Program-made: the position numbers and the translations under genes
Assembly: GCF_002934065.1 (NCBI RefSeq)
Contig: NZ_CP018049.1
Location: 5,826,501-5,890,500, forward strand
Source: Pseudomonas orientalis
GTDB lineage: Bacteria; Pseudomonadota; Gammaproteobacteria; Pseudomonadales; Pseudomonadaceae
Length of the DNA: 64,000 bases
Direction of reading: 5' to 3'
Shown here: in pieces, positions 32,161 to 40,748 of the stretch
Position numbering within the stretch: position 1 is the stretch's first letter
Layout of the letters: the number at the start of each line of letters is the position of its first letter
The notes under the pieces: generated by a model
Told to the model about the DNA's origin: nothing
Databases searched by the model: none
What the model saw: only the letters and a program-made list of their open reading frames with translations

Positions 32161-34101
32161 ATGCTATTCAACCAAGCCTCACGCCTGGCCCAGATCACCA
32201 GCCCCCTCGGGCCGGATGTGCTGTTGCTCAATGAAATGGGCGGCGGCGAAGAGTTGGGACGGCTGTTCAACTACGAGCTGCAACTGACGTCCCTGGACGC
32301 CAACATCGACCTCAACCAGTTGCTGGGCAAGCCGATGAGTGTGGGCCTGCAACTGGCCGACGGTGGCGAACGGCACTTCCACGGCATCGTCGCGCGCTGC
32401 AGCCAGAACATCGACAAAGGCCAGTTCGCCAGCTACCAGGTGACGCTGCGCCCATGGCTGTGGCTGCTCAGCCGCACCTCCGATTGCCGGATTTTCCAGA
32501 ACCTGAGCATCCCGCAGATCATCAAGCAGGTGTTCCGCGACCTGGGCTTTTCCGACTTCGAAGACGCCCTGAGCCGGCCGTACCGCGAGTGGGAATACTG
32601 CGTGCAGTACCGCGAGACCAGCCTGGATTTCGTCAGCCGCTTGATGGAACAGGAAGGCATCTACTACTTCTTCCGTCACGAGCAGGACCGTCATGTGCTG
32701 GTACTGGCCGACGCCTATGGCGCCCACACCACGGTGCCCGGCTACGCCTCGATTCCGTATTACCCCAAGGACGAGCAGCAGCGCGAACGCGACCACATGC
32801 ATAACTGGCACCTGGCGCAGGAGGTGCAGCCCGGCTCGCTGGAGCTCAACGACTATGACTTCCAGCGGCCCAGCGCGAGCATCGACGTGCGCTCGGCCAT
32901 GCCGCGTCCCCACACCGCCGGCGACTACCCGCTGTATGACTATCCCGGCACCTACGTGCAGAGCGCCGACGGCGAACACTACGCGCGCACCCGCATCGAA
33001 GCCCTGCAAACCCTGCACGAACAGATCGAGTTCGCCGGCAATGCCCGCGGCCTGGGTTCGGGCCATTTGTTCAGCCTCACCGGCTTCAGCCGCCAGGACC
33101 AGAACCGCGAATACCTGATCGTCGGCTGCCGCTACGACATCGTGCAGGAAAGCCTGGAAACTGGCAGCGGTTCGGGCTCGGCGCAGTTCGAAAGCAGCCT
33201 GACCTGCATCCCCGCGCAACAGAGCTACCGCACCCTGCCCGCCACCCATCGGCCCGTGGTCAAAGGCCCGCAAACGGCGCTGGTGGTCGGCCCAAAAGGC
33301 GAGGAGATCTGGACCGACCAATACGGCCGCGTGAAGGTGCACTTCTACTGGGACCGTCACGATCAATCCAACGAAAACAGCTCATGCTGGATTCGCGTGT
33401 CGCAGTCCTGGGCCGGCAAGAACTGGGGCTCGATGCAGATTCCAAGGATCGGCCAGGAAGTGATCGTCAGCTTCCTCGAAGGCGACCCCGACCGACCGAT
33501 CATCACCGGGCGGGTGTACAACGCCGAGCAGACCGTGCCTTACGACCTGCCGGAAAACGCCACCCAGAGCGGCATGAAAAGTCGATCCAGCAAAGGCGGC
33601 ACGCCGGCCAACTTCAATGAAATCCGCATGGAGGACAAGAAGGGGGTGGAGCAGTTGTACATCCATGCCGAGCGTAACCAGGACATCGTGGTGGAGGTGG
33701 ATGAGAGTCATTCGGTGGGGCATGACCGGAATAAGAGTATTGGCCACAACGAGACAGTAACCATCGGCAATAACCGTCTGCGCATCGTCAAGCAGGAAGA
33801 CATCCTCTCGGTGGGCCAGCGCAAGACCGACAGCATCAGCCAGAGCTATGTCATTGAAGTGGGCGAAAACCTGCGCTTGGTCTGTGGCGAAAGCATTCTG
33901 GAGTTGAATGCCAGCGGGCAGATCAACCTCACCGGCGTGCAAATCAGCTTCTACGCCAGCGGTGATGCCGAGTTCAATACCGGCGGCCTGCTGCACCTGA
34001 ACAATGGTGGCGGCGCGGGCGCCACCCCGGATGGCCAGGGCGTGAAAGCCAGCATCGACGCCAATATCAAAGCCGCGTTCCCCACGCCTAAAAGCTCCTG
34101 A
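32161..34101 (+). CDS. vgrG: T6SS spike protein VgrG
   Basis: VgrG trimers form the gp27-gp5-like spike that carries the PAAR tip. The 646-residue protein shows the Rhs/Vgr N-terminal domain (LAQITSPLGPDVLLLNEMGG, FHGIVARCSQNIDKGQFASY, YCVQYRETSLDFVSRLMEQE), the gp5-like OB part (GRVKVHFYWDRHD, CWIRVSQSWAGKNWGSMQIP, GQEVIVSFLEGDPDRPIITG) and the beta-helix region (VGHDRNKSIGHNETVTIGNN). The tail of about 40 residues after the helix is small and Gly-rich, so I see no evolved effector domain. The PAAR-Rhs downstream is the presumed cargo. Confidence 0.95.
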   Translation: MLFNQASRLAQITSPLGPDVLLLNEMGGGEELGRLFNYELQLTSLDANIDLNQLLGKPMSVGLQLADGGERHFHGIVARCSQNIDKGQFASYQVTLRPWLWLLSRTSDCRIFQNLSIPQIIKQVFRDLGFSDFEDALSRPYREWEYCVQYRETSLDFVSRLMEQEGIYYFFRHEQDRHVLVLADAYGAHTTVPGYASIPYYPKDEQQRERDHMHNWHLAQEVQPGSLELNDYDFQRPSASIDVRSAMPRPHTAGDYPLYDYPGTYVQSADGEHYARTRIEALQTLHEQIEFAGNARGLGSGHLFSLTGFSRQDQNREYLIVGCRYDIVQESLETGSGSGSAQFESSLTCIPAQQSYRTLPATHRPVVKGPQTALVVGPKGEEIWTDQYGRVKVHFYWDRHDQSNENSSCWIRVSQSWAGKNWGSMQIPRIGQEVIVSFLEGDPDRPIITGRVYNAEQTVPYDLPENATQSGMKSRSSKGGTPANFNEIRMEDKKGVEQLYIHAERNQDIVVEVDESHSVGHDRNKSIGHNETVTIGNNRLRIVKQEDILSVGQRKTDSISQSYVIEVGENLRLVCGESILELNASGQINLTGVQISFYASGDAEFNTGGLLHLNNGGGAGATPDGQGVKASIDANIKAAFPTPKSS

Positions 34102-34116
34102 CGAGACCTGTTTGCC

Positions 34117-34551
34117 ATGACGTATCGAATCAATGAATTCCAGTTTCAACTGCCTGCCGGCGAATTGCAGGATGCGACGATCAACATTCTCAAGTTCCCC
34201 GAACTGGGCACCTCCCTGATCGTCAGCCGCAGCTTGCTGGGAGAAGGTGAAACCCTGCACAGCAACTTCAATGACCAACTCCAGCGCCTGGAAAAACAGG
34301 TGCAGGATTTACGTTATCAACCGGGTGTCGATGTGCGTTTGGGCGCGGCTCAAGAAGTGGCAGGGATCGAATTGCGCAGCCAGTTCAACAAGGGCAATGA
34401 CAAGGTGTTCCAGTATCAATTGGCACTGGTGATTCCAGGCACGCGCAAGATGCTTGCCCTCAGCTACGTGAAGGCGGACACGCTGGGTGACGCCGAGGCG
34501 GCGCATTGGTCCTTGATAAAAAATTCACTGTCGTTCGACGCTATTTCTTGA
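34117..34551 (+). CDS. Eag-type effector chaperone (DcrB/DUF1795 family)
   Basis: A 144-residue protein of the DUF1795/DcrB-like fold (MTYRINEFQFQLPAGELQDA, then LIVSRSLLGEGETLHSNFND, and a closing amphipathic stretch AAHWSLIKNSLSF). Eag chaperones bind the N-terminal transmembrane segments of prePAAR-containing T6SS effectors and load them on VgrG. The position, 16 bp after vgrG and 13 bp before a PAAR-Rhs with N-terminal membrane segments, is exactly that of such a chaperone. It has no signal peptide, in keeping with a cytoplasmic role. Specific naming (EagR or EagT) is not justified from sequence. Confidence 0.85.
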   Translation: MTYRINEFQFQLPAGELQDATINILKFPELGTSLIVSRSLLGEGETLHSNFNDQLQRLEKQVQDLRYQPGVDVRLGAAQEVAGIELRSQFNKGNDKVFQYQLALVIPGTRKMLALSYVKADTLGDAEAAHWSLIKNSLSFDAIS

Positions 34552-34563
34552 TGAGCTGCCTGC

Positions 34564-37500
34564 ATGTCTGACGCGTTATGGGCGGCCCGGATGGGCGATG
34601 CGCTTTCCCACACTTCGATGATGGCCGACATCCTCGGCGGTGTGCTGGAGGTGGCGGCGAATATCGCGATTACTGCTGTAGCAACTGCCGCAGTGGTCGC
34701 GGCCACCGGCATTACCGTCGCCACCGGTGGGCTGGGCTGCTTCCTGTTGGGCGCAGTGGTGGGCACGATTGTCGGTCTGGCCATGAGCAAGACGGGCGCA
34801 GACAAAGGCCTGACGAATTTATGCGACAGCTTCAGCAATGCGCTGTTTCCGCCCACGGTACAGGCCAACATTCTCACCGGTTCCACCAACACGCTCACCA
34901 ACAGCATCCCAGCCGCCCGCGCCGCCGGCGCAATCAGCTCTCACGTTGCGCCAGCGGGTACCGAACTGGAAGAGCCGACGCCGGCGCCTGAGGCCAGCTA
35001 CCTGGACATGGCTGAGAGCTTCTTCTCGCAGATGTGGCGTCCGACCGTCGCCACGCCTGCGCCAGGTGCCGTGCCCAAGCCGCTGGACCTGGTCGTGTGC
35101 ATGAAACACCCGCCGATGCCGCCGCAGTTCCTGGCCGAAGGTTCGGACAAGGTCACGATCAACGGCCAACCGGCGGTTCGCAGCGGTGACCGCACCACCT
35201 GTGATGCGACCGTGGTTTCGTCCGGGTTGATCTCATCGAACGTGACCATTGGCGGTGGTTCGGTGGTGGTGCGCGAGATTCGCAGCGGCAAGACGCCGGG
35301 CGTGGGGCTGGCGGTGACGGCATTACTGATGCTCAAGGGTGGCAAGGGCAAGTTCTTCAGCAAGTTGCCCTGCATGCTGATCGGCGGTGCCACTTCGATG
35401 GCCGTCAGCAGTGCGATGGGAGCGATGGCGAATGCTGCCATGGGCTCGTCGAATCCGGTGCATGCGGCGACGGGTGCGAAGGTATTGGGCGATGTCGATG
35501 AGCTGGACTTCGTGCTGCCCGGCATCTTGCCGATTGACTGGCAACGTTTCTATAACAGCCGCGACGAACGCACCGGCAGTCTGTTTGGCGCGGGCTGGAG
35601 CGTGCCGTATGAGGTCTGCGTCGAAATCCGGCCTCATCCCGACGGCGGCGAGACGCTTGTATACACCGACGAGCAAGGGCGCCCTATCGACATGGGCTCG
35701 ATTCCCTTGGGCGGCGCGGTGTTCAGCGCCGGTGAAGGGCTCGCTGTGCGGCGGCACCTCAATGGGCAGTTGCTGATTGAGAGCGATGATGGCCTGTACC
35801 GTCTTTTTGAACTTACGACGCACCCGTCACGACTGCGCCTGACTCAGTTGGGGGACCGCAACGACAACCGCATCCATATTGATTATGACGAGGCCGGACG
35901 CCTGGTACGGCTGCGCGATACCTTCGACCTGGTGCAGGTTGAGCTGATTCGCGACGGCGAACAGGTCAGTCGCATCGAACGGGTGTATCCCGATCAACGC
36001 CGTGAGGCGCTTGTTGGGTATGGCTACGACACCGCCGGCAATCTGGCCGAGGTGCGTGATGCCACCGGGCAGGTGCGGCGGCGCTTCGCCTACGACAGCG
36101 ACCGGCGCATGGTGGAGCATCAGTTGCCGACCGGGTTGCGTTGTTTCTATGAGTGGGCTTTGGTTGAAGGCCTGGAGTGGCGCGTGGTGCGGCACTGGAC
36201 GGATGAAGGCGACGCGTATCAATTCGACTATGACTTGAACGCCGGCCTTACCCGCATCACCGATGGATTGCAGCGCGTCAGCACCCGGCACTGGAATACG
36301 CAGCACCAGATCATTCGCTACAGCGACAATCTCGGCCAGACCTGGCTGTTCGAATGGAACGAGGAGCGCCAATTGCTCAGCGCCACCGACCCGCAGGGTG
36401 GGCGCTACGAGTACAGCTACGACGAGTCCGGCAACCTGATCGGCGAAACCGACCCACTGGGCCGCAGCGATTCGACCTTGTGGCTGGAGCATTGGGCACT
36501 GCCGCTGGTAGAGACCGACGCCGCCGACAACAGCTGGCAGTATCGCTACGATCAGCGCGGCAACTGCATCGCCGAAACAGATCCGCTGGGCTACGTCACC
36601 CGGTACCGCTATGACGCCCATGGCCAGATCGTGGAGATCATCGACGCGACCGGCAAAAGCAAGAAACTGCGCTGGAACCCGTTCGGGCAATTGGTCGAGC
36701 ACATCGATTGTTCGGGTTACCCGACGCGTTTCAGCTACGACGAGCGCGGTTATCTGCAAGTCATCACCGATGCACTGGGTGAGCGCACGCAATTCAGCTA
36801 CGACGCTCAGGGGCGCTTGCTAAGCACTCAATTGCCGGATGGCCGTATCGAGCAGTACCAGCGCGACATCAGTGGTCAACTGCTGGGGTATACCGACCCG
36901 GCCGGGCACACCACGCTCTACCAGCACAACCGCCGCGGCCAGGTCAGCCAGCGCACCGACGCCCATGGCCGGCAGGTGAAGTTCGGCTACGACAGCTACG
37001 GGCGCCTGCAAGCACTGATCAACGAGAACGGTGAGCGCTATCGGTTTGCCTGGGACGCCGCCGACCGCCTGGCCGAGCAGCAGGACCTGGACGGCAGCGC
37101 CAAGCGCTACGACTACGACCTGCTGGACAACATCACCACGGTAACCGCCATTGCGGCGCCTTTCGGCAATGGCCTGGCGGTAGTCCCCGAGGCACCACCC
37201 GCCCCCATTGTTCACCGGCTGGAGCGTGATTCTGTCGGCCGGCTGGTGGCGAAAGTCACCGACGATGGCCGCACCGAGTACAGCTACGATGCGGTGGACC
37301 AGCTCACGGCGGTCACTTTCACCGATCTGCAAGGCAATACCCAGGCCCTGGGCTTCGCCTACGACGCTCTTGGCCAGTTGCTTGTCGAACGGAGCGCGGC
37401 CGGTACCCTGAAACACCACTACGATGAACTCGGCAACCTCATCCAGACCCAACTGCCCGACGGCCGCTGGCTCAATCGCCTGTATTACGGCAGCGGCCAC

Positions 37501-38949
37501 CTGCACCAGATTAACCTCGACGGCCAGGTGATCAGCGATTTCGAACGCGACCGCCTGCACCGCGAAGTCCTGCGCACCCAAGGCCAGCTCAGCACCCGCA
37601 GCGAATACGACCGCAGCGGCCGCCTGCGCTCCCGCCAACGCCGCCTTGCCAGCCAACCATCGTTGATGCCCGCAGCCGCGCAAAAGCAGTTCGAGTACGA
37701 CCCCGCCGACAACCTGATCGGCAAACTCGACCAGCAACCCACCGCGCAACACCGCCAATTACTGCACTACGACGCCACCGGCCGCATCATCGCCAGCCAG
37801 GATAGCCTGCACGGCCAGCGCGAAACCTTTGCCTATGACGCCGCCGCCAACCTGCTCGACGGCCCGCAGGCGGGTGCCGGGTTGGTGGTGCATAACAAGC
37901 TGCTGACGTATCAGGACAAGCGTTATCGCTATGACGCGTTTGGACGGATGATTGAAAAGCGCAGCGCCAAGCGGGGCGTGCAGCGGTTTACCTACGATGC
38001 TGAAAGCCGTTTGGTTGAAGTGCGTAACGATGACGGCACCGTCGTGCGAATGACCTACGACCCGCTGGGCCGACGCATCGAAAAAACCGAGCATGGCAGT
38101 GACGGGTATCCGCTGGGAGAAACGCAGTTTGTGTGGGATGGACTGCGGTTATTGCAGGAGCATAAATACAGCCAGACCAGCCTCTATGTTTACGATGATG
38201 ACGGCTACGAACCGCTGGCCCGCGTCGACGGCCTTGGCCCGCTACAGAAGATTCGCTACTACCACAACGACCTGAACGGGTTGCCGGAACAACTGACCGA
38301 GGCCGATGGGCACAGCGTCTGGCAGGCGACTTATCGGGTGTGGGGCAACACGCTGGAAGAGGTGCGGGAGCCTTATTACATCGAGGAGCAGAACCTGCGG
38401 TTCCAGGGGCAGTACCTGGATCGGGAGACGGGGCTACACTACAACACTCTCAGGTTCTACGACCCCGAAATAGGGAGATTCACGACTCCAGATCCGATCA
38501 GTTTTCTGGGCGGCATAAACCTGTACCAATATGCGCCAAATCCAATTACATGGGTTGATCCATGGGGCCTGTTTAACTGGAACTATAAAAATATGCCTGG
38601 AATCGATGGATTCCAGAAACACCATATTATTCCTCAATCGCTGGCTGATCACCCTGCTCTGAAGAAGGCTGGATTCGACATACACAAAACTTCCAACATC
38701 ATTTACTTGCCTAGTGAAGAGGGCAAGCACAAATATCGCACTATTCACAAAGGCTCACATCCGGGTTACAACAAAGCTGTTCGGGCACAACTCAATGAAA
38801 TATCCCTCGCGGGCAAGGCTGGAAAATGGAAAAAAGCCCAGTACGCGCAGGCAGTGAGGGAGGTTGTCAGCTCTGAAAGGTCGGGATTACGCAATGGGCG
38901 TACTCGGTTGAATAAAAACTCAACTCAAGCAGGTCGCTGCGGGAAATAA
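34564..38949 (+). CDS. T6SS PAAR-Rhs effector with C-terminal AHH-type nuclease tip
   Basis: A 1461-residue polymorphic toxin. Residues 1-20 (ALWAARMGDALSHTS) look like a prePAAR motif, then a membrane region at about 29-78. A PAAR domain lies near 180-245 (KVTINGQPAVRSGDRTTCDA), followed by a second hydrophobic region near 250-295. The Rhs shell with many YD repeats runs from about 305 to 1335 and ends at the self-cleavage motif region PDPISF ... VDPWGL (1332-1336). The 125-residue tip carries KHHIIPQSLADHP (His1353, His1354) and HKGSHPGYN (His1395, His1399), the AHH family of HNH/EndoVII-like nucleases. The tip is AT-richer than the core, suggesting exchange. The DNase activity is inferred from family only. 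Confidence 0.9.
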   Translation: MSDALWAARMGDALSHTSMMADILGGVLEVAANIAITAVATAAVVAATGITVATGGLGCFLLGAVVGTIVGLAMSKTGADKGLTNLCDSFSNALFPPTVQANILTGSTNTLTNSIPAARAAGAISSHVAPAGTELEEPTPAPEASYLDMAESFFSQMWRPTVATPAPGAVPKPLDLVVCMKHPPMPPQFLAEGSDKVTINGQPAVRSGDRTTCDATVVSSGLISSNVTIGGGSVVVREIRSGKTPGVGLAVTALLMLKGGKGKFFSKLPCMLIGGATSMAVSSAMGAMANAAMGSSNPVHAATGAKVLGDVDELDFVLPGILPIDWQRFYNSRDERTGSLFGAGWSVPYEVCVEIRPHPDGGETLVYTDEQGRPIDMGSIPLGGAVFSAGEGLAVRRHLNGQLLIESDDGLYRLFELTTHPSRLRLTQLGDRNDNRIHIDYDEAGRLVRLRDTFDLVQVELIRDGEQVSRIERVYPDQRREALVGYGYDTAGNLAEVRDATGQVRRRFAYDSDRRMVEHQLPTGLRCFYEWALVEGLEWRVVRHWTDEGDAYQFDYDLNAGLTRITDGLQRVSTRHWNTQHQIIRYSDNLGQTWLFEWNEERQLLSATDPQGGRYEYSYDESGNLIGETDPLGRSDSTLWLEHWALPLVETDAADNSWQYRYDQRGNCIAETDPLGYVTRYRYDAHGQIVEIIDATGKSKKLRWNPFGQLVEHIDCSGYPTRFSYDERGYLQVITDALGERTQFSYDAQGRLLSTQLPDGRIEQYQRDISGQLLGYTDPAGHTTLYQHNRRGQVSQRTDAHGRQVKFGYDSYGRLQALINENGERYRFAWDAADRLAEQQDLDGSAKRYDYDLLDNITTVTAIAAPFGNGLAVVPEAPPAPIVHRLERDSVGRLVAKVTDDGRTEYSYDAVDQLTAVTFTDLQGNTQALGFAYDALGQLLVERSAAGTLKHHYDELGNLIQTQLPDGRWLNRLYYGSGHLHQINLDGQVISDFERDRLHREVLRTQGQLSTRSEYDRSGRLRSRQRRLASQPSLMPAAAQKQFEYDPADNLIGKLDQQPTAQHRQLLHYDATGRIIASQDSLHGQRETFAYDAAANLLDGPQAGAGLVVHNKLLTYQDKRYRYDAFGRMIEKRSAKRGVQRFTYDAESRLVEVRNDDGTVVRMTYDPLGRRIEKTEHGSDGYPLGETQFVWDGLRLLQEHKYSQTSLYVYDDDGYEPLARVDGLGPLQKIRYYHNDLNGLPEQLTEADGHSVWQATYRVWGNTLEEVREPYYIEEQNLRFQGQYLDRETGLHYNTLRFYDPEIGRFTTPDPISFLGGINLYQYAPNPITWVDPWGLFNWNYKNMPGIDGFQKHHIIPQSLADHPALKKAGFDIHKTSNIIYLPSEEGKHKYRTIHKGSHPGYNKAVRAQLNEISLAGKAGKWKKAQYAQAVREVVSSERSGLRNGRTRLNKNSTQAGRCGK

Positions 38950-38950
38950 T

Positions 38951-39520
38951 ATGTACCTATTAGAAATCAGTGAAAATTATTCAGAAATTTACTGGTTCAA
39001 ATACGACCAGAAAAAATCTCCCGACCATCTATTGTTTATTAGTGGAGAAGAGCAATCATCAATTGCTACCACTCCAACCTTTAGAAATAAAAATAAGATC
39101 AGCGCATCTCGCTTAATGTCCTTCGATCTTCTTCAAAGTGACACGCTTGAATTTGTAAGCGAGGCAATGGCCAACGTACTGCGCAAATTCCCGACAGACG
39201 TTCAGCTTTTTCCTGCCAACGTTTATCTAAAAGAAGAAAAGCTGGAAGGTTACTATGTATTCAATGTGATCCAGATACTTCCTTGTATTGATTTGAATAA
39301 CTCTCAATATGGTCCCATGTTCAGCTTTATGCCGGATGGTCCTCTGAGATTCACCACTCTTCAAAGTCTGCCACCTGCTAGCTTAGGCAATCACCATATC
39401 GTGAGAGCTAAGGAAAGTTCACAACGCATCTTTGTTTCCCCGCAGTTCAAGCAGCAATGCGAAGCATCCCAGCTTAAAGGTCTTCGATTCGTAGACTGTT
39501 CCAAAGGTATCCAAGTCTGA
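38951..39520 (+). CDS. Candidate immunity protein for the Rhs nuclease tip (Imm11/DUF1629-like)
   Basis: A 189-residue protein starting 1 bp after the rhs stop, the usual place of the cognate immunity gene. The C-terminal part (HHIVRAKESSQRIFVSPQFK, then LKGLRFVDC) resembles the end of DUF1629/Imm11-type immunity proteins; the rest is not recognised. No signal peptide or membrane segment, fitting protection against a cytoplasmic nuclease. Base composition is clearly AT-richer than the housekeeping genes and equal to the toxin tip, so toxin tip and immunity gene probably arrived together. The family call is tentative; the immunity role is inferred from position. Confidence 0.7.
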   Translation: MYLLEISENYSEIYWFKYDQKKSPDHLLFISGEEQSSIATTPTFRNKNKISASRLMSFDLLQSDTLEFVSEAMANVLRKFPTDVQLFPANVYLKEEKLEGYYVFNVIQILPCIDLNNSQYGPMFSFMPDGPLRFTTLQSLPPASLGNHHIVRAKESSQRIFVSPQFKQQCEASQLKGLRFVDCSKGIQV

Positions 39521-39527
39521 ACAATAA

Positions 39528-39612
39528 AGGGGACTGAACAATAAACAACAATAAAGGGGACGGACCTATTTAATCCGGATAGGGACTATAAATAAATCCG
39601 ACCCCTTTATCG
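39528..39612. repeat. Repeated AATAAAGGGGAC motif with imperfect inverted copy
   Basis: The 14-bp text ACAATAAAGGGGAC occurs near 39521-39535 (as GAACAATAAAGGGGAC) and again near 39547-39560. ATAAATAAATCCGACCCCTTTAT ends near 39611 as the inverted partner, making an imperfect stem of about 20 bp. Such GGGGAC(G)GAT palindromes accompany REP-like elements in several gamma-proteobacteria. It lies exactly between the two immunity genes. Confidence 0.55.
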
Positions 39613-39660
39613 CTGGCAGAAAAGCCGGCCGTGGTAAATGATTTCCCATTGGAGAAGAAC

Positions 39661-40260
39661 ATGAGCGCCCTCGACAACGCATTTAAAGAACTGCGCCGCG
39701 TCCACAAAAAATTCGATATCGAAGGCCGCTTCGAAAAGCGCAGTCAAGCCAATGCAAAATGGCCGCAGACGTTGCCGCGCTCGGCAGAGACCGATTATTT
39801 CTACGATAACTGCGAGCCAGTTGATGTTGAAGTTGAAACCGGTTTGACGCCGATATGCTTCTTCAACTTGAGCAGCTTGGAAGACGGCCAAGTTGGCTAT
39901 AAATGGGCTGGCGACTCGAACAAGACCCAGGCAAACGGGAATTGGCCCGCCCAGTATCTGGTTTTCATGGACGATATTGGCGGCGGTAAACCGGTTATCG
40001 CCGTCACGGATACTCCCGGCACTTCGGTGTGGGCGAGCTACGATGTCGTCGAGCCGTTCAAGATTGCCGACTCCTTGGCTGATTTCCTCTTGGCGTTCGC
40101 CAAAACTATAGAAATTGTTCATGGAAAATTCGACATTTTTGACATTTACAACGATGACGACGAGCTTTCCCCCAAATTTGTAAAATTGTTGACCAAAGAA
40201 GTCAGCCCGTTGCTGGGTGAAGAGAACTTCGAACGCTTCTTCGATTACTTCTACGGCTAA
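39661..40260 (+). CDS. Second, orphan immunity protein (SMI1/KNR4, SUKH-like)
   Basis: A 199-residue protein with the look of the SUKH (SMI1/KNR4) immunity superfamily: a helical N-terminus (MSALDNAFKELRRVHKKFDI), a central YLVFMDDIGGGKPVIAVTDT and WASYDVVEPFKIADSLADFL near the end. ATG at 39661 follows TTGGAGAAG; the frame opens at 39631 before that site. No toxin domain precedes it directly, so it is an orphan, presumably protecting against a tip once present here or carried by rivals. The SUKH call rests on pattern recognition only. Confidence 0.65.
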   Translation: MSALDNAFKELRRVHKKFDIEGRFEKRSQANAKWPQTLPRSAETDYFYDNCEPVDVEVETGLTPICFFNLSSLEDGQVGYKWAGDSNKTQANGNWPAQYLVFMDDIGGGKPVIAVTDTPGTSVWASYDVVEPFKIADSLADFLLAFAKTIEIVHGKFDIFDIYNDDDELSPKFVKLLTKEVSPLLGEENFERFFDYFYG

Positions 40261-40337: not shown

Positions 40338-40391
40338 GCGATTGATCAAGCGACTGGCGCAGTGGTTGCGGTCACCGGCATTACCGTCGCG
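40338..40391 (+). pseudogene. Remnant of an rhs/PAAR gene 5' region
   Basis: GCGCAGTGGTTGCGGTCACC followed by GGCATTACCGTCGC matches 34688-34724 of the PAAR-Rhs gene (its first membrane region, AAVVAATGITVA) with only two or three differences, and the homology extends weakly leftwards to GCGATT. The match stops at the HU terminator. This is a short scar of a second rhs copy lying after the orphan immunity gene. Confidence 0.6.
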
Positions 40392-40394
40392 ATT

Positions 40395-40428
40395 AAAAAA
40401 TGGGCACCCAACCCAGTCGGCGTGCCCA
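40395..40428 (-). terminator. Rho-independent terminator after the HU gene
   Basis: Minus strand: TGGGCAC ... GGTGCCCA stem with an inner CC/GG pairing, followed by TTTTTTAATC. It lies 45 bp after the HU stop at 40473 and marks the right edge of the T6SS/rhs island. Confidence 0.8.
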
Positions 40429-40472
40429 TCTTCTTTACCGCCCCGCCTCCCTTCGAGACGGTACCGCTTAAC

Positions 40473-40748
40473 TTATGGGTTGACGCTGTCTTTAAGCGAC
40501 TTGCCCGGCTTGAACGCAACGGTATTGCTGGCTTTGATCTTCACCGGCTCACCGGTTTGCGGGTTCTTGCCGGTGCGGGCGCCGCGGTGGCGTTGCAGGA
40601 AAGTGCCGAAGCCGACCAGGGTGACGCTGTCCTTGCGGTGCAGGGCGCCGGTGATTTCTTCGAGAACGGCGTTGAGGACGCGGTTGGCCTGTTCCTTGGT
40701 GAGATCGGCCTTTTCAGCGATGGCGGCGGCGAGTTCTGGTTTACGCAT
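40473..40748 (-). CDS. hupA: HU-family DNA-binding protein
   Basis: HU is a small histone-like protein that bends and compacts DNA. The 91-residue protein is full length: MRKPELAAAIAEKADLTKEQ, VTLVGFGTFLQRHRGARTGK and the arm NPQTGEPVKIKASNTVAFKP. ATG at 40748 follows GAGGC. The symbol follows the PAO1 gene next to the rubredoxin reductase; hupB naming is also used for beta-type HU, so the exact paralogue is uncertain. Confidence 0.92.
   Translation of the reverse strand: MRKPELAAAIAEKADLTKEQANRVLNAVLEEITGALHRKDSVTLVGFGTFLQRHRGARTGKNPQTGEPVKIKASNTVAFKPGKSLKDSVNP

Follow-up and report, generated by a model that had tools for sequence, protein, structure and literature searches.

The window, by which we mean the whole 64,000-nucleotide stretch of Pseudomonas orientalis DNA analyzed here (contig NZ_CP018049.1, positions 5,826,501 to 5,890,500), carries type VI secretion system (T6SS) structural genes and, beside the T6SS cluster, a vgrG-eagR-rhs operon. 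Its rhs gene occupies positions 34564-38949, downstream of those structural genes. The genes and features of the locus are as follows, in window coordinates.

32161..34101, + strand: vgrG, the T6SS spike (Phage_GPD/Gp5 Pfam matches; gene order shared with relatives).
34117..34551, + strand: putative eagR-type chaperone gene of the DcrB/DUF1795 family (Pfam DcrB, E 3e-18).
34564..38571, + strand: rhs core to Leu1336, with PAAR, DUF6531, RHS repeats and the aspartyl autoprotease region (D1310, D1332) (Pfam/NCBIfam).
38455..38488, + strand: break in base composition and homology, the 5' seam of the exchange (change-point test; alignment with genomes having the same core and different tips).
38572..38949, + strand: nuclease tip of 125 aa, a KHH variant of the AHH family (PF14412).
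38951..39520, + strand: Imm11 immunity gene (PF07791; a structure model with pLDDT 94 matches MXAN_0049).
39546..39611, no strand: palindromic element (hairpin) of 66 bp at the 3' seam (repeat search; DNA fold z -4.6).
39615..39641, + strand: stump, the final 8 codons and stop of an earlier GHH-type Rhs tip (92.9% DNA match with genome G101).
39661..40260, + strand: SUKH-type immunity gene left over from the previous tip, now an orphan (Pfam SMI1_KNR4 at E 1.7e-4, narrowly missing the cut-off).
40395..40480, no strand: right edge of the variable region, where the conserved terminator/HU gene sequence returns (five relatives regain DNA identity from 40395/40396 onward).

The Rhs protein shows the hallmarks of an Rhs polymorphic toxin, namely PAAR, RHS repeats, a DPxGL autocleavage site and a variable tip. 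Its core (residues 75-1336) matches RhsA of P. protegens (7q97) with 2092 bits; the prePAAR match, at 15.9 against a cut-off of 25, lies below the threshold. The two proteins share the Rhs shell, the PAAR and the aspartyl cleavage site, whereas the C-terminal toxin of RhsA is a different one. The PDPI and VDPWGL motifs occupy residues 1309-1312 and 1331-1336, and the aspartate pair D1310/D1332 is separated by 22 residues, the same spacing as between D1324 and D1346 of RhsA, both of which are required for its self-cleavage after residue 1350 (PMC8765631). The autocleavage site is intact, and by analogy with RhsA the cut is expected after Leu1336. The order vgrG-eagR-rhs beside T6SS genes suggests that the Rhs effector is secreted by the T6SS, and the position of the DcrB-family gene within the operon points to an Eag chaperone.

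Profile searches of both proteins, which the preliminary description had proposed, assigned the tip to PF14412 (79.7 bits, cut-off 22.3) and its neighbor to PF07791 (52 bits, cut-off 22.1). The HH and HKGSHP motifs that had been recognized in the tip are indeed those of AHH nucleases, lying within KHH (residues 1352-1354) and IHKGSHPGY (residues 1394-1402). The family motif consists of [AG]HH, N, H, H and Y (PMC3482391); the present tip carries K in place of A/G before HH, and the HH, N (SNIIY), H (IHKG), H (SHP) and Y positions do not vary among nine subfamily relatives. The tip belongs to the AHH nucleases, a family with the His-Me finger / HNH-EndoVII fold, and is expected to cut DNA. V2a from Agrobacterium tumefaciens 1D1609 is a T6SS AHH DNase for which both motif histidines are needed for activity (PMC6971182), although it is borne by a PAAR-like carrier and has the AHH motif, compared with the Rhs carrier and KHH found here. 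The structure model of the tip is weak, with a mean pLDDT of 66 and low values in the motif region, and its search against the PDB, which gave no match, is uninformative because of the quality of the model. PDB sequence searches with the tip and with the immunity protein found nothing, and a plasmid search with the tip returned distant tips only. Beyond the Pfam domain, positions 38908-38946 encode a subfamily-specific tail in which LNKNS is conserved and a cysteine close to the C-terminus is invariant.

The immunity gene follows the rhs stop codon after a gap of 1 bp. Its likeness to Imm11/DUF1629 had been thought to be confined to the end of the protein; it extends over the full length, since the Pfam match covers residues 39-184 of 189 and the predicted fold follows that of MXAN_0049 (6a4c) along its whole length. 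MXAN_0049 was the sole significant PDB match of the model (E 3.8e-8, TM 0.68), with 15% identity in the structural alignment, and is the Imm11 prototype that binds and neutralizes an AHH nuclease (PMC12077181, PMC12077131). The profile and fold matches together rule out a new immunity family. A PADLOC search gave no match.

The preliminary description had noted an abrupt change in base composition and codon use at the cleavage region, persisting through the tip and the following gene, and the numbers bear this out. The rhs gene has a single sharp shift in codon use just 5' of PDPISF, where GC3 drops from 0.776 to 0.472 (change-point 38467; 38455-38488 within 2 log units). The log-likelihood rises by 30.4, compared with a maximum rise of 7.7 among 300 permutations. 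The GC content is 0.625 in the core, 0.469 in the tip and 0.411 in the immunity gene, with 0.61-0.65 in the flanking housekeeping genes. Relaxed codon use in toxin cassettes could partly underlie the low GC. The YDPE-IGRF-PDPI stretch is also where homology between genomes sharing the core stops.

We read the 30 places with the closest core DNA (84-100% over the last 1.16 kb) and obtained the tip from 29 of them; these 29 near-identical cores carry tips from 18 unrelated clusters. The cassette found in the window occurs in its relatives in several states. G122, a close relative, is arranged like the window. In G017, the same AHH-Imm11 cassette sits displaced behind a core bearing another tip, and in G121 it is displaced and frameshifted (locus L054, 7506-8440), with the frameshifts breaking both genes. 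G187, whose core is 97% identical, has a different tip and retains an Imm11 orphan 1.2 kb downstream; this gene (locus L063, 9350-9916) is 80% identical to ours and stands without an AHH toxin behind the other tip. Together with the seam in the cleavage region, these genome comparisons show that the tip and its cognate immunity gene have been exchanged, as had been proposed. Displacement of C-terminal ends at Rhs loci is a known process (PMC10539506, PMC3967940). At the Rhs1 locus of Serratia marcescens, tips are likewise exchanged together with immunity genes and orphan immunity genes are kept downstream, although the tips there are NADases and the accessible part of that report describes no palindrome (PMC10539506).

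The window also preserves, 3' of the segment covered by the preliminary description, a scar of the previous tip. A 0.66-kb segment is 92.9% identical to G101, where it spans the end of a GHH-type Rhs tip and the downstream SUKH gene, indicating that the window retains the antidote of a former tip. SUKH genes lie directly 3' of GHH-type Rhs tips in G101, G158 and G236. Further downstream, 42 bases (40349-40390) outside any clear gene are 90% identical to rhs bases 117-158 and may be left over from another copy of rhs.

Between the incoming immunity gene and this scar lies the palindromic element, preceded by a half copy of itself (39520-39542). The same cassette followed by the palindrome is found in four genomes (the window, G122, G017 and G121), and homology between the window and the other three stops at the palindrome. 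To its right the sequence is different in each: the window has the stump of the GHH-type tip, and the other three have the end of an unrelated tip, an internal part of a GIY-YIG-like tip, and the end of an Rhs core together with a distant AHH tip, all toxin names being taken from translations. Further copies occur in the same order: in G246 the SUKH gene is cut at codon 12, in G213 and G151 the palindrome abuts an Rhs core truncated around residues 1043 and 1060, in G247 it abuts an AHH tip cut near its residue 42, and in G176 a truncated reading frame lies alongside. Eight cases clearly show an immunity gene to the left and a truncated, displaced toxin to the right, and five more are suggestive of this order. 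The palindrome family was detected by pattern search in 61 of 299 genomes, with 0 hits for the reversed control; genomes carry 0-6 copies. Dispersed palindromes beside a Y1 transposase gene characterize REP/RAYT or TIR/Y1 elements, and the present family is linked in places to such genes. This genome has two copies, the second about 0.7 kb from a PF01797 (Y1, IS200-like) gene. So low a count is unlike classical REPs and excludes an abundant genome-wide REP, and inspection by eye revealed no core sites matching an integron attC. An Rfam search gave nothing above the gathering threshold and one chance miRNA match.

For the 3' seam taken by itself, the palindrome is probably a passenger, a miniature element that tolerates intergenic sites and next to which deletions occur incidentally. 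Members of the family also lie away from toxins, and G119 has the same cassette without the element, which is therefore dispensable for holding the cassette. What a passenger explains less readily is its surroundings. An rhs gene lies within 1.5 kb of 4 of 28 palindrome loci (one per genome, two with this same cassette excluded) compared with 2 of 240 random 3-kb windows (P 0.0013); other loci adjoin Imm50, Imm6, PoNi, Barstar or DUF637 genes, the random-window comparison covering rhs only; and the truncated toxin pieces directly adjoining its right end vary from genome to genome. As a less likely reading, we tentatively hypothesize that a Y1/IS200-linked palindrome family marks and helps to form the 3' seam in Pseudomonas cassette exchange. 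The element would follow the incoming immunity gene, its far end would be joined to the truncated outgoing toxin by element-adjacent deletion or one-ended joining, and the 5' seam would arise by homologous recombination in the core. Our literature search found no paper tying such palindromic elements to toxin exchange, which is weak evidence of novelty. At loci L236, L241 and L248, the same palindromes lie amid toxin-like and CdiA-like fragments that, judged by their translations, are unrelated to Rhs.

An Imm11-like gene lies downstream of all 13 Pseudomonas tips of this subfamily among the 299 genomes. A search with the tip alone gave 21 named loci in Pseudomonas, Snodgrassella, Enterobacter and Pedobacter, and in all 21 such a gene lies directly 3' of the tip; this set partly overlaps the 13 Pseudomonas tips. 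Most of the remoter AHH tips are followed by Imm11 or Imm43 proteins. The divergences of tip and immunity protein are correlated (r 0.98), a value reached in none of 5000 Mantel permutations. The suggestion that this toxin-immunity pairing might be new does not survive: the neighbor is a full-length Imm11 that recurs in every subfamily relative examined, the AHH-Imm11 pairing has been on record since 2012 (Zhang 2012, PMC3482391), and both the AHH nuclease and the protection from it by Imm11 were demonstrated by experiment in Myxococcus (Wang 2025, PMC12077131). MXAN_0050/MXAN_0049 of Myxococcus xanthus and their homologues (PMC12077131, PMC12077181) share with our locus the succession of PF14412 and PF07791 and delivery by the T6SS, which the neighboring genes suggest for ours; in Myxococcus, however, the toxin is encoded by its own gene next to a PAAR gene, whereas here it is an Rhs tip. 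We infer that the Imm11 protein binds and blocks the tip in the producer and its kin. The tip could instead be a nuclease-like remnant or act as a toxin on a different substrate such as RNA, beside a non-cognate Imm11, as the low-confidence model, the lack of a PDB match and KHH in place of AHH might suggest; we regard this as improbable in view of the invariance of all His, Asn and Tyr motif positions across the subfamily, the co-divergence of the two proteins and their constant adjacency in both of the partly overlapping locus sets.

Taken together, the locus very likely encodes an Rhs effector delivered by the T6SS, in which the C-terminal tip was recently swapped together with its immunity gene as a single cassette. 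VgrG and the chaperone would load the Rhs shell, the aspartyl autoprotease would cut the tip off after Leu1336, and the tip, freed in the target cell, would cut DNA there as an AHH (His-Me finger) nuclease, with Imm11 binding and blocking it in the producer and kin. The 5' join would have arisen by recombination within the conserved core, immediately 5' of the cleavage site. The 3' join lies at the palindromic element, with the GHH-type tip lost except for its last eight codons and the SUKH gene orphaned. Tip cassettes are often AT-rich, and G122 has the same arrangement. A native AT-rich tail that drifted where it stands, with no exchange, is nevertheless hardly credible, contradicted as it already is by the abrupt breakpoint, the unrelated tips on near-identical cores, the sister genomes in which this cassette is displaced or orphaned, and the scar of another tip.

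The AHH-Imm11 Rhs tip as such is well supported as an ordinary one, one more case of a well-described class; only the seam element may be new, and its role is hypothetical. The value of the locus lies in its record of swapping, in which sister genomes show the same core, locus and cassette in active, displaced, orphaned and broken states, and in which the stump and the immunity gene of the outgoing tip are still in place. How such cassettes are joined at their 3' ends is seldom addressed in the portions of the literature accessible to us, and a recurring palindrome at the 3' seam, if true, would make cassette joining directly testable.
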